Shown: in pieces, positions 1 through 50,738 of the stretch | How the letters are laid out: each line of letters begins with the position of its first letter | Numbering within the stretch: position 1 is the first letter of the stretch | Assembly: GCA_947491315.1 (NCBI GenBank) | Contig: CANLII010000016.1 | Location: 1-50,738, forward strand | Length of the DNA: 50,738 nucleotides | Direction of reading: 5' to 3' | Source: Ignavibacteria bacterium | GTDB taxonomy: Bacteria > Bacteroidota > Ignavibacteria > Kapaibacteriales > UBA961 | Program-made: the position numbers and the translations under genes | Notes under the pieces: model-generated | Seen by the model: only the letters and a program-made list of their open reading frames with translations | Database searches by the model: none | Told to the model about the DNA's origin: nothing

Positions 1-54
1 TTTCTACAACCTTCTCTCTGGACCGCTTGTCAATCTCACACCTTCCGAAAAAGG

Positions 55-189
55 TCATTCGTGCTCCGTCGCGCCGAATGGGAATACAAATCTACGACTC
101 TTCTGCATTCCCACCAAATGGTTTTTTACTATTTCATAAAATTGTTTGTAGCTCTTTTTACTTAAAATACGCCGTTTTGAAGGTCGCAT
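55..189 (-). CDS. possible small basic protein downstream of tilS
   Basis: A 44-codon open frame starts with ATG at 189, about 20 bases after the stop of the repaired tilS frame at 210. The product is rich in Lys, Arg and Tyr and I do not recognise it. Its TGA overlaps the ATG of another minus-strand frame (ATGA at 55-58) that stays open to the left edge, beginning MTFFGRCEID. The ATGA overlap is typical of coupled genes, so both could be small genes continuing the tilS operon. No Shine-Dalgarno site is visible. A chance frame is equally possible at this length. Confidence 0.25.
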   Translation of the reverse strand: MRPSKRRILSKKSYKQFYEIVKNHLVGMQKSRRFVFPFGATEHE

Positions 190-209: not shown

Positions 210-590
210 TCAAGCATCTTTAGGTGGTCTACTTGTTTTTTTGGGAGCTCTCGGATTTGACTTCACATTCTTGGATTTTTTTTCAATTGGCACCAAAACA
301 GTTTCCTGAACAGAAATACTCACTTGCTCACTTGTTACTTTCTGAGAATTGTCTTCACTTTGTTTTTTCTGTTGAGCTTTTATCTGCAATTTTGATTGAG
401 GCTTTTGCTGTTCTCTTGGTTGAGTATTCTGCTGTTCTCTTGGTTGAGTATTCTGCTGTTCTCTTGGTTGAGTATTCTGCTGTTCTCTTGGTTGAGGCTT
501 CTGCTGTTCTCTTGATTGAGGCTTCTGCTGTTCTTTTGGTTGAGGCTTCTGCTGTTCTCTTGGTTGAGGCTTCTGCTGTTCTTTTGGTTG
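210..590 (-). other. out-of-frame continuation of the tilS C-terminus
   Basis: If one base is restored in the short repeat unit at 588-610, the tilS frame continues through the rest of the repeats as QPREQQ/QPKEQQ units. It then runs through a non-repetitive tail (IKAQQKKQSEDN..., ...VPIEKKSKNV..., ...RAPKKTSRPPKDA) to a TGA at 210-212. This tail has the same Lys/Gln/Ser-rich style as the N-terminal extension of the protein. It therefore looks like the ancestral C-terminus, cut off by a single-base deletion. The repaired protein would be about 932 residues. Confidence 0.6.
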
Positions 591-3007
591 GGCTTCTGCT
601 GTTCTTTTGGTTGAGGCTTCTGCTGTTCTTTTGGTTGAGGCTTCTGAGATTGTAATTGCAAATAATTGATCTGCTTTTCAAGCGATATTGAAATACGCAT
701 GATTGAAGATGTTTGCTGAGTCACCTTATAACCATTGTGAATACGATAACCAACAACCCACAATACTTCATCGCCTGAACACAATACAAGCACCTTCCTT
801 TTGTCCGCGACATTGATCTTAGCATTTGTCAAGAAATCGCTCACAGTCATTGAACCTTCCATTCCTATAGGAGTAATGCGATCACCATCTCTCCAATGTC
901 GAATCACACATTGCTCAGGAAAGAGTTCGGCATCGAAATATTCAATAAGTGGGTGCTCACCAAAATTCACGCTTCGGGGATCAGCAATTTCACCATGATA
1001 CCCAATTCCATGCGAAGTGAATGTACCAATCTTCATAAGAGGCATAAATACTTCTATTCCCTGCTCAGGTCTTGCAAATACCAATTCTTCGCGTTCACGA
1101 ATCACAAATAAATCCTTTGTGATATCAAGTCTTCCACCGGCAGGTCCTTGAGCAATATGTAGAATTGAATCTATTGCCACCATGGAGATAGGCTGCATGC
1201 GCAAGTAATATCGAAGTGATGACTGAATCAATTCTCCTTTTGCAAAATCCTTGATGGTTTGAAACATTCCGATATTGATTGCAAAAGAAGTTTTTGAGAT
1301 TTCTTTCACACCCTGCTTCATTATATGGGTAATTCTCTCTGAAATGAATTCCTGGGCTTCACGCATGAGTGTTGAAGTTCTATTCAACACTTCCGTCAAA
1401 CCAGGAGAATATTCCGCTCTCAGCATTGGAAGCAATTCATGCCTGATTTTGTTTCTTGTGAAATTCAATGCGGTATTTGACTCATCTTCACGCCACTCAA
1501 GATTGCGAATTTTGGCATAGTGCTCAATATCTTTCTTGGAGAGCCACAATATTGGTCTGATATAGGAAAGCTTTTTGTCAATATCTCTTCTTGGCGGAAT
1601 GCCAGCAAGACCTGTAATGCCCGAACCTCGCATTAAATTCATGAGTAATGTTTCTGCATTATCTTCAGAATGATGAGCCGTTGCAATAACATCAGCATGA
1701 CATGCTTTTGCTGCTTTTTCAAAAAACTGATAGCGCATTATTCGAGCAGCTGTTTCGATTCCAAGATTATAATCCTTGGAATATCCCGCAACATCAGCAC
1801 TGGTATGATGAAAATGTAACCCATACTTACTTGCCAATCGGCGAACATATAACTCATCCTGATGCGATGCCTCACCTCGTAATTGATGATTGCAATGAGC
1901 AACATGAATGGTACACCAACCTCTTGTGCTCATCACTGAAAGCAAATCAAGCAACACTACTGAATCGATACCACCGCTTACGCCCACCAAAATCACACTC
2001 GGCTTCTTGATTCTGATTTCTTGTTCCATAAAGTGAATCGTTTTCTGAAGAATTGGCTCAAGTTGTTTGGGCAAAGGTTCAACCTTTGCTTTAGACATCG
2101 CATTGCCCCAGGTTTCTACTTTTTTCAAAGGTGGGAAATCACGATCAGCTTTATCAAGTGGCAGTAATTTTGATGACAGCTCAAGATTTTTCTGCGGAAT
2201 TATTTTATCAAATTGTTGTTTTTTCTCAACCTGCTTCTTCTCAACTAGCTTCTTCTCAACCTGCTTCTTCTCAACTAGCTTCTTCTCAATCACTTTAGGG
2301 TTATTATCAACAAATAATTCAATCTCTGTCTTCATCTCAACTTCTTTTATAACCGGTTCAACCAAAGCCATTTGCTCCTGTTTTGTCTCGACTTCCTCAT
2401 TCACTATTGTAGAATGTTGCTTTTCGTGCAAATGTTGCATACGCTTCAACTTCTTTCTTTCCTTCCATTCGCGCAAGCGTCGTTCTTTACGGGATAATTT
2501 TTCCTCACCTTTAAGTAATGAATCTGCCATTGATTCTTCAAATCCATCAGCATCAATCGATTCCGGGGCGAGGCCTAACATAGACTGATCAATGAGTGCA
2601 TTTCCCTTTGGAATGTCATTTTTTGGGCTTATGTCAGGAGTAGAAACAGCCTCATTACCTTTCTTGCTTTGTGATTTTCTTGGAACAGGACTTTTACTCT
2701 TAACCTGCTTTAGAGGCAATTCAGTTTTTTCAACCTTTTGCTCAGGTTCTGACTTAGGAACAGAAATTTTGGAAGCTTTTTTTGGAGTTTTTGAGGATTT
2801 CTCTAGTATGTGGTCCTTAGCCACTATAATAGTCTCACTTTTAACATTTTTTTCGATTAATGCTTTAGGCTTCGCAATGGTAACTCTTTTGACTTTATTG
2901 GGCTCAGGGTTAACCGATGATTTGACTGAAGAATGTACTTCGGTAATTTCTTCTTTGAGCGCAACCTTTTTAGTTGCACCCTTCTTGGGTGTGGTAGATT
3001 TAGCCAT
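380..3007 (-). CDS. tilS: tRNA(Ile)-lysidine synthetase with long low-complexity extensions
   Basis: TilS uses ATP and lysine to convert cytidine 34 of tRNA(Ile)-CAU to lysidine, so that it reads AUA codons. The PP-loop SGGIDS is at residues 344-349, followed by HCNHQLRG and ATAHHSEDNAETLLMN, and by the TilS C-terminal domain up to about residue 780. Usual family length is about 430-450; this frame has 875. Residues 1-315 are a Lys/Glu/Ser/Pro-rich extension with tandem VEKKQ/VEKKL units. The end is a tandem repeat whose frame changes at about 590, so the last ~70 residues (NSRSLNQE units) are probably an artefact or a phase variant. It lies 40 bases after the dihydrouridine synthase gene, in a tRNA-modification pair. 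The catalytic core looks intact. Confidence 0.9.
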   Translation of the reverse strand: MAKSTTPKKGATKKVALKEEITEVHSSVKSSVNPEPNKVKRVTIAKPKALIEKNVKSETIIVAKDHILEKSSKTPKKASKISVPKSEPEQKVEKTELPLKQVKSKSPVPRKSQSKKGNEAVSTPDISPKNDIPKGNALIDQSMLGLAPESIDADGFEESMADSLLKGEEKLSRKERRLREWKERKKLKRMQHLHEKQHSTIVNEEVETKQEQMALVEPVIKEVEMKTEIELFVDNNPKVIEKKLVEKKQVEKKLVEKKQVEKKQQFDKIIPQKNLELSSKLLPLDKADRDFPPLKKVETWGNAMSKAKVEPLPKQLEPILQKTIHFMEQEIRIKKPSVILVGVSGGIDSVVLLDLLSVMSTRGWCTIHVAHCNHQLRGEASHQDELYVRRLASKYGLHFHHTSADVAGYSKDYNLGIETAARIMRYQFFEKAAKACHADVIATAHHSEDNAETLLMNLMRGSGITGLAGIPPRRDIDKKLSYIRPILWLSKKDIEHYAKIRNLEWREDESNTALNFTRNKIRHELLPMLRAEYSPGLTEVLNRTSTLMREAQEFISERITHIMKQGVKEISKTSFAINIGMFQTIKDFAKGELIQSSLRYYLRMQPISMVAIDSILHIAQGPAGGRLDITKDLFVIREREELVFARPEQGIEVFMPLMKIGTFTSHGIGYHGEIADPRSVNFGEHPLIEYFDAELFPEQCVIRHWRDGDRITPIGMEGSMTVSDFLTNAKINVADKRKVLVLCSGDEVLWVVGYRIHNGYKVTQQTSSIMRISISLEKQINYLQLQSQKPQPKEQQKPQPKEQQKPNQKNSRSLNQENSRSLNQKNSRSLNQENSRSLNQENSRILNQENSRILNQENSRILNQENSKSLNQNCR
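396..648 (-). repeat. 24-bp tandem repeat at the 3' end of tilS
   Basis: There are ten units plus a partial one, of form TTGAGGCTTCTGCTGTTCTC-TTGG read on the plus strand. Three units carry TTGAGTATTC and some have TTTT for TCTC. All are 24 bases except the unit at 588-610, which is 23 (TTGGGC in place of TTGAGGC). Because 24 is a multiple of three and the unit has no stop in any minus-strand frame, all three frames stay open. The one-base loss switches the encoded octapeptide from KPQPKEQQ-type to NSRSLNQE-type. Confidence 0.95.
2223..2290 (-). repeat. 15-bp tandem repeat inside tilS encoding VEKKQ/VEKKL
   Basis: Four 15-base units run from 2223 to 2282, plus a partial unit, alternating TTCTCAACCTGCTTC and TTCTCAACTAGCTTC. 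They give a 30-base higher-order period. In the tilS frame they encode alternating pentapeptides (VEKKQ, VEKKL) within the Lys-rich N-terminal extension. Confidence 0.9.
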
Positions 3008-3047: not shown

Positions 3048-4082
3048 TTAAGCGACATCACTCTGAAACTGATGATTGTGTAAAAACTTGATATATGCCT
3101 CAAGTCTGTCTTCAACTTGGGCAAATGATTCATATTGTTGAACATCTTGCTTTACAGCCGAAGCACAATATAAACCACGCAAATAACCTGAATAAAACTT
3201 CCGAAATTCGAGTACTGCTCTTCGTTCTGTTTTTTGAAGCAATTGTAGTTTCAAATGCTCCAAACAAGTACGAACTTTCTCCTCAAAATCGGGTTCTGGA
3301 GCATGTTCTCCGGTTGCAAGAAGATGTCTTGCCTCACGAAACACAAATGGATTGCCAACCGCCGCACGCCCAATCATGACAGCATCGCAACCGCTGTCTT
3401 GGAATGCTCTCAATACATCATCTGAAGTAATGATATCTCCATTGACAATAACGGGAATATCAACAACTTTCTTGATTTTGGGAATCCAAGACCAATCTGC
3501 AACGCCGGAATGTCCCATATCTCTAGTTCTGCAATGGACGGTAATTGCAGAAGCACCAGCATCTTGCAATCTTAGAGCGACATCTTCAATGATGATTGAA
3601 GAAGGATCCCAACCCAATCTTGTTTTTACGGTAACGGGTAATTTTACCGTGTCAACGATTGCTTTTGTCATGGCCGCCATCAAGGGAGGATCTTTTAGTA
3701 ATGCTGCACCTGCATTCCGTGCAACCACATTCCTAACCCAACAACCACAATTAATGTCAATGAAATCTGGTCCGGAAGCCTCTGCAACAAGAGCAGCTTC
3801 CTTCATGATATCAATATCTCCACCAAAAATCTGAATCGAAACAGGATGTTCTTCATCGGCCAAACGCAATTTTTCCATTGATCTTCTGGCATCCCGAACC
3901 AGACCATCTGATGAAATGAACTCCGTATAGACAATATCAGCGCCCATGCGCTTGCATATAACTCTGAAAGGCAAGTCAGTAACATCCTCCATGGGTGCTA
4001 AAAGCACTCCATTTTGGACTTTTACATCGCCGATGGTGAGTTCGGCATAGATATGTTCATTGTTGGTGTTTAGAGTATCCAT
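3048..4082 (-). CDS. dusB: tRNA-dihydrouridine synthase (Dus family)
   Basis: This FMN enzyme reduces uridines in the D-loop of tRNA to dihydrouridine with NADPH. It has a TIM-barrel N-terminus (LAPMEDVTDLPFR, residues 28-40). The catalytic-cysteine region is DINCGCWVRNVV (109-120), followed by AGAALL. The FMN-phosphate motifs VNGDI (213-217) and MIGRAAVGNP (236-245) are present. The 344-residue length is normal. The family most often has GCP at the catalytic cysteine; here it is GCW. It lies 48 bases after the HMA gene and 40 bases before tilS. The symbol dusB is the closest general match; subfamily assignment within Dus is not certain. Confidence 0.88.
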   Translation of the reverse strand: MDTLNTNNEHIYAELTIGDVKVQNGVLLAPMEDVTDLPFRVICKRMGADIVYTEFISSDGLVRDARRSMEKLRLADEEHPVSIQIFGGDIDIMKEAALVAEASGPDFIDINCGCWVRNVVARNAGAALLKDPPLMAAMTKAIVDTVKLPVTVKTRLGWDPSSIIIEDVALRLQDAGASAITVHCRTRDMGHSGVADWSWIPKIKKVVDIPVIVNGDIITSDDVLRAFQDSGCDAVMIGRAAVGNPFVFREARHLLATGEHAPEPDFEEKVRTCLEHLKLQLLQKTERRAVLEFRKFYSGYLRGLYCASAVKQDVQQYESFAQVEDRLEAYIKFLHNHQFQSDVA

Positions 4083-49928: not shown

Positions 49929-50058
49929 AATTGAAATAGAAGCAACGTAGTTAGTATCGAACTTGTCTTTACGTAAGAGATGAATGGGTCGTATCCTCCT
50001 ATTCACGCGTGATGACACATTGTGGGATGCAGAAAGCCAACTGCATTACTTTTTTATA

Positions 50059-50095
50059 TGCGCCAGGGATAGCGCAATTTTTTGCCATGAGGCAA
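50059..50095 (+). promoter_or_regulatory. two short hairpins ahead of the right-edge gene
   Basis: TGCGC/GCGCA (50059-50063 and 50072-50076, 8-base loop) is followed by ATTTTTT, then TTGCC/GGCAA (50082-50086 and 50091-50095, loop ATGA). The first has a weak terminator form; the second lies 12 bases before the ATG at 50108 and could mask it. The rest of the 179-base gap 49929-50107 shows no gene or clear -7 box. Confidence 0.35.
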
Positions 50096-50107
50096 TGTGA
50101 GTGTATT

Positions 50108-50738
50108 ATGAGTTATCCAACACCTGATTCGGATAACAATTCTTTTAATGAGAATTCCGAATCACAAAAACCAATCTATTCCTCTGATGGGAATAATTCA
50201 TCCGCAGGCGATGATGCCTCGGGATTAGGTAATCAAGAAAGGGAGAGAAAACCAAGGACGCCCTATCGTTCCCATGGTAAACCTTCTGATGAGGAAAGAC
50301 CTTCTGATGAATCCGGAAGTAGTCAACATGTTTCTCGCTCTGAATATCAAGGTCGTTCCGACTATCGCAGACCTTCCTATGGCGATAATCGCTATGAGCG
50401 AAGGGATTTCCAACAAAAGCCATATAGTCCACAAGAGAATTATCGCCCAAACAATTATGGCGGTGATCGTCAAAATCGTGATTATCAGCCAAGATATGGT
50501 CGCACTCCGGAAGGTGGCTCAGGTGGTTATAGACAAGACTATAGACCTCGTCGTGAATATGGTGATCGTCCGCAATATAGCCGTCCCGGCGCTTTAGATA
50601 ATCGTGGTAGCGGTGGTGGTGGTTTCGACAATCGTGGTAGCGGTGGTGGTGGTTTCGACAATCGTGGTAGCGGTGGCGGTGGATATGAAAAGCGTGTTGG
50701 TGGCGGTTTCGACAACCGTGTAGGCGGTGGTGGTTTCG
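50108..50738 (+). CDS. Gly/Arg/Tyr/Asp-rich protein, N-terminal part (cut by window edge)
   Basis: The frame starts at ATG 50108 (MSYPTPDSDNNSFNENSESQ) and is open for 210 codons to the right edge. It first is Ser/Asn/Asp-rich, then carries many Arg-Arg, Tyr-Arg and Gly-Asp-Arg groups. It ends in DNRGSGGGGF-type repeats. No folded domain is reached. Such RGG/RGY-rich tracts precede RNA-acting enzymes in Bacteroidota, for example RluB-type pseudouridine synthases and DEAD-box helicases. The identity of this gene depends on sequence beyond the window. Confidence 0.7.
   Translation, partial: MSYPTPDSDNNSFNENSESQKPIYSSDGNNSSAGDDASGLGNQERERKPRTPYRSHGKPSDEERPSDESGSSQHVSRSEYQGRSDYRRPSYGDNRYERRDFQQKPYSPQENYRPNNYGGDRQNRDYQPRYGRTPEGGSGGYRQDYRPRREYGDRPQYSRPGALDNRGSGGGGFDNRGSGGGGFDNRGSGGGGYEKRVGGGFDNRVGGGGF
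50597..50737 (+). repeat. 30-bp tandem repeat encoding DNRGSGGGGF
   Basis: There are three 30-base units at 50597-50626, 50627-50656 and 50657-50686, the first two nearly identical and the third ending in GGY. They are followed by shorter related units at 50687-50710 (EKRVGGGF) and 50711-50737 (DNRVGGGGF). All lengths are multiples of three, so the frame is kept. The array continues to the window edge. Confidence 0.9.

Follow-up and report, generated by a model that had tools for sequence, protein, structure and literature searches.

A one-base frame break in an expanded 24-bp coding minisatellite in the C-terminal tail of TilS from an Ignavibacteria bacterium

Three described systems come closest to the locus reported here. 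In-frame coding minisatellites are built of units whose length is a multiple of three. At phase-variable contingency loci, an intragenic array sets the downstream reading frame and a change in unit number changes that frame; such arrays often lie near the N-terminus, the position favoured by the coding repeats of pathogens (PMC3899988). Type I TilS with CTD2 carries a PP-loop catalytic domain followed by TilS_C; importance has been established for the catalytic domain, CTD1 and CTD2 (PMC12514573).

The present locus shares with in-frame coding minisatellites a 24-bp unit in a coding low-complexity region and a copy number strongly different from that of the nearest relative. Unlike them, it has one unit of 23 bp and a broken frame, seen in one genome of the species. 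As in contingency loci, an intragenic array sets the downstream frame, but here the unit is 24 bp and the gene is a housekeeping gene. The two type I TilS domains are present and in order, whereas a Lys-rich N-terminal extension of about 340 aa and a low-complexity C-terminal tail of about 100 aa are absent from the accessible part of the type I description in PMC12514573. Among titles and abstracts, we found nothing relevant on a tilS gene with a tandem repeat and a frameshift.

The window, the whole stretch of 50,738 nucleotides analysed here, is the complete contig C16 of a 2.3-Mb genome in 49 contigs. The gene and its parts are as follows.

380-3007, minus strand: tilS ORF as sequenced, 875 aa, tRNA(Ile2) lysidine synthetase (PF01171, TIGR02432 and PF11734 matches)
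1994-3007, minus strand: Lys-rich low-complexity N-terminal extension of TilS, aa 1-338 (dN/dS against G003 and similar extensions in the order)
1436-1993, minus strand: PP-loop lysidine synthetase catalytic domain, aa 339-524 (profile match)
704-904, minus strand: TilS_C domain, aa 702-768, the last recognised domain, ending ahead of the array (profile match)

Profile matches were obtained with PF01171 (E 7e-53, 179.4 bits against a cut-off of 27), TIGR02432 (190.9 bits against 93.6) and PF11734, TilS_C (E 4e-8, 33 bits against 22). With the lysidine synthetase domain above curated cut-offs, we identify the predicted product as TilS. The closest relative is G003 (Ignavibacteria bacterium UBA961), a member of the same genus whose TilS is 86% identical. 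Compared with G003, the catalytic core has a dN/dS of 0.05. The ratio for the N-terminal extension is 0.27 across 324 codons, which indicates that the extension is translated in the genus.

The repeat lies at the other end of the protein, and four features describe it.

384-646, minus strand: 24-bp coding minisatellite of 11 units, the last diverged, in the C-terminal tail (TRF and unit register)
576-598, minus strand: sole 23-base unit, with one T missing between 591 and 590 (anchor spacing and register)
380-575, minus strand: off-frame (NSRSLNQE)n array product ending at the stop at 380-382 (no counterpart in any relative compared)
210-392, minus strand: ancestral tail, 60 codons and a stop, conserved in the original frame (same-genus TilS end and dN/dS)

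TRF called a 24-bp period at 392-646 with 10.7 copies, 94% matches and a score of 412. In the register used, in which units start at CAGAAGCC and run from 646 down to 384, ten units have 24 bp and a single one has 23 bp. The anchor GAACAGCAG recurs along the minus strand at spacings of 24, 23, 24, 24, 24, 24, 24 and 24. All units except the last agree with the main unit at 21-24 of 24 bases. Array call and anchor spacing thus bear out an earlier note on this DNA, which had proposed a single-base break of the tilS frame inside a 24-bp tandem array; what it gave as a 23-base unit at 588-610 is this break, counted in a different register. An array of this kind goes far past what chance would produce. 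No second copy of the array was found in the source genome.

Ahead of the break, the frame encodes KPQP(K/R)EQQ units. Stops close the current frame at 380-382, the original frame at 210-212 and the third frame at 355-357. The first two are the frame ends claimed before, and the claim of about 70 further codons in the repaired frame was roughly right, as 60 codons follow the array. All three frames of the unit are indeed open. However, this is expected by chance, since 55% of random shuffles of the unit were free of stops in any frame.

To learn which frame is the older one, unit number and frame were compared in relatives, as the earlier note had proposed. G003 has three 24-bp units at the array site, without a break and in the original frame. 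These units are diverged, with 16-19 of 24 bases alike among themselves and 18-21 of 24 like the main unit here. In the note, an end at the 380 stop in all homologues would have argued against the repaired tail. They do not all end there: G003 TilS ends on the "repaired" tail (...KKSKNVKPNPRGPRKTSRPAKDA, then the stop), and its read-through end (...KPQQKTQNKPQQKKQSIDNSQKITSEPVSIPVQEPVLVPIEKKSKNVKPNPRGPRKTSRPAKDA, then the stop) equals the "repaired" tail here. No frame break was found in the relatives compared, which read through in one frame, and none of them has an expanded or mixed 23/24 array. Two members of the genus, G004 and G005, gave no tilS match. A search for a second genome of the same species (seven genomes of the genus and a contig scan) returned other species only.

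Aligned with G003 in the original frame, the post-array tail spans 60 codons with no gaps and 12 amino-acid differences. Its dN/dS is 0.19, with a bootstrap 95% interval of 0.07-0.45. Read in either of its two other frames, this DNA has 3-6 stops and ratios above 1. For a branch to the source genome wholly free of constraint, we estimate a mean ratio of about 0.63 (baseline 0.27 on the other branch), a value that 0.3% of bootstrap samples reached. Homologue and dN/dS together show that the original frame leads to a real, conserved C-terminus, in agreement with the suggestion that the repaired tail is meaningful. They also imply that the 380 stop is derived, and that the loss of frame either is recent relative to the split from G003 or is not real. 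As G003 has three diverged units and the source genome has 11, the array expanded in the source lineage from an existing 24-bp period.

The earlier note had placed the break in the C-terminus of an essential enzyme. That it touches the working part of the enzyme is not supported, because TilS_C ends ahead of the array. As in type I TilS, TilS_C is present; it lies upstream of the break, the array beginning after aa 768, and judged by this match the catalytic domain, CTD1 and CTD2 would all be upstream. In the genus, the TilS_C motif is followed by basic tails of about 90 aa with little conservation from one species to the next; elsewhere in the order, 14-32 aa follow the motif in those members in which it could be placed. 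Since the break lies past the last TilS domain and in a variable tail, enzyme activity should survive, and a loss of TilS activity should not be expected. The present tail, counted from KQINYLQ, has 98 aa, a net charge of +9 and 16% hydrophobic residues, and the G003 tail has 83 aa, a net charge of +13 and 18%. In bulk, the present tail resembles the ancestral type, because the unit, being rich in A, encodes hydrophilic residues in these frames. The C-terminal tail is probably disordered or floppy.

Could the mixed array be a reversible switch? If slippage or recombination added or removed the 23-base unit, TilS would move among three C-termini, with 0, 1 or 2 copies of that unit leading to the stops at 210, 380 and 355 and all frames open through the array. 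Long, near-identical arrays are prone to the loss and gain of units (PMC3899988). However, there is a single 23-base unit in one genome, the relatives lack an expanded array, and the open frames are what chance predicts. Phase-variable arrays have units whose length is not a multiple of three; here a change in the number of 24-base units keeps the frame. The break also sits at the C-terminus of a housekeeping gene, away from the N-terminal position favoured in pathogens. The frame switch raised in the earlier note is thus not supported, with 24-bp copy number neutral for frame and no mixed array in relatives, and we regard it as very unlikely. A slow switch with three states, set by the number of 23-base units and giving TilS different tails within one population, is a shade less likely again. 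If true, a housekeeping enzyme would be switched by units that at first seem unable to change frame.

A second special case is that ribosomes or transcripts restore the conserved tail, by programmed or fortuitous -1 frameshifting or by transcript slippage. In its favour, sequence conservation of the tail persists, and the CAA_AAG steps of the array could allow a low-level -1 slip. Against this, neither an X_XXY_YYZ heptamer in the current frame nor a run of at least 6 A/T or at least 5 G/C turned up when the array was searched for programmed signals. Programmed frameshifting uses a conserved slippery site at the frame junction, and the relatives read one frame and need no shift. We give this the least credence of all the readings. 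Even taken jointly, switching and recoding are highly improbable.

A plainer alternative is an error of sequencing or assembly. The real gene would then have 24-base units only, in the same or another number, and TilS would end at 210. The contig end bears on this question.

1-127, minus strand: rRNA-operon leader ending the contig, outside tilS (second copy on contig C12)

Two copies of this leader are present in the source genome, bases 1-127 being repeated at the end of contig C12 (G000:C12:1-127; L040). An Rfam search of the window gave no match. In G003, tilS is followed after about 80 bp by the leader and after about 550 bp by the start of a 16S rRNA gene. Thus tilS is directly upstream of the rRNA operon in G003, and the contigs of G002 and G006 end at a similar place after tilS. 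The repeated leader explains the contig end: the assembly broke at an rRNA operon. The other end of the window also breaks inside a repeat: a Gly-rich 30-bp repeat (FDNRGSGGGG x3; 50593-50738, plus strand) stands at the end of an ORF (49955-50737) that is cut by the contig end.

A single assembly carries the break, and its position, inside a tandem repeat and 0.6 kb away from the contig end at the rRNA operon, is of the kind at which assemblies are least reliable; this counts against a real deletion. So does the purifying selection on the tail, which shows no relaxation, as an error would also give, and the break is absent from all relatives compared. On the other side, the other large genes of the window appear to be whole: it is tiled by long ORFs, and a scan of 20 large ORFs gave Pfam matches for 17 and revealed no split gene. 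This counts for a real deletion. The missing base does not come from a homopolymer (GAGG -> GGG, plus strand). Exact repeats within the array are at most 67 bp long, short enough for ordinary short reads to resolve it. Weighing these points, we consider an error unlikely, but a possibility to be taken seriously.

The reading we favour, with some confidence, is a real, recent and nearly neutral one-base deletion in an expanded coding minisatellite of the TilS tail. The 24-bp minisatellite expanded from about 3 to 11 units in a non-conserved, probably disordered tail, and one unit would have lost a single base, recently relative to the split from the nearest relative. Translation would leave the KPQP(K/R)EQQ frame, pass through the remaining units as (NSRSLNQE)n and stop at 380. 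The old basic end of 60 residues would be swapped for another hydrophilic, net-positive tail. With the catalytic and tRNA-binding domains upstream and intact, the enzyme should work and the mutation should be near-neutral. The expansion, the one-base break, the ancestral frame and the position after the domains are observed; from them we infer a deletion that is genuine, recent and near-neutral. The loss of one base is an ordinary event, probably a recent mutation or else an assembly slip. A coding minisatellite in a disposable tail may thus expand and lose frame with the enzyme untouched, and the NSRSLNQE-repeat C-terminus of the annotated TilS should not be taken as its ancestral or functional end.

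A second in-frame minisatellite occurs in the N-terminal extension of tilS (2223-2289, minus strand), encoding KKLVEKKQVE as 30 bp x 2.2 or 15 bp x 4.5. It is longer here than in G003. Both tilS arrays (2223-2289 and 384-646) fall within low-complexity parts of the gene.

Lys-rich low-complexity N-terminal extensions of TilS occur across the order, with about 40 to more than 580 aa ahead of SGGxDS (window 1994-3007, minus strand; L003-L009, L011, L012, L021, L025 and L026). They contain a basic motif, EKLSRKERRLREWKERKKLKRM in the genus and a repeated PKLSYWQQRRLQKKLKQ in the family members L007 and L008. A second copy of EKLSRKERRLREWKERKKLKRM was sought in the rest of the source genome and not found. 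We know of no described function for this motif or for the extension.

Upstream of tilS is a dusB-like tRNA-dihydrouridine synthase gene (3048-4082, minus strand), which is 97% identical in G003. Of the relatives' loci, 9 have a dusB-like gene close to tilS.
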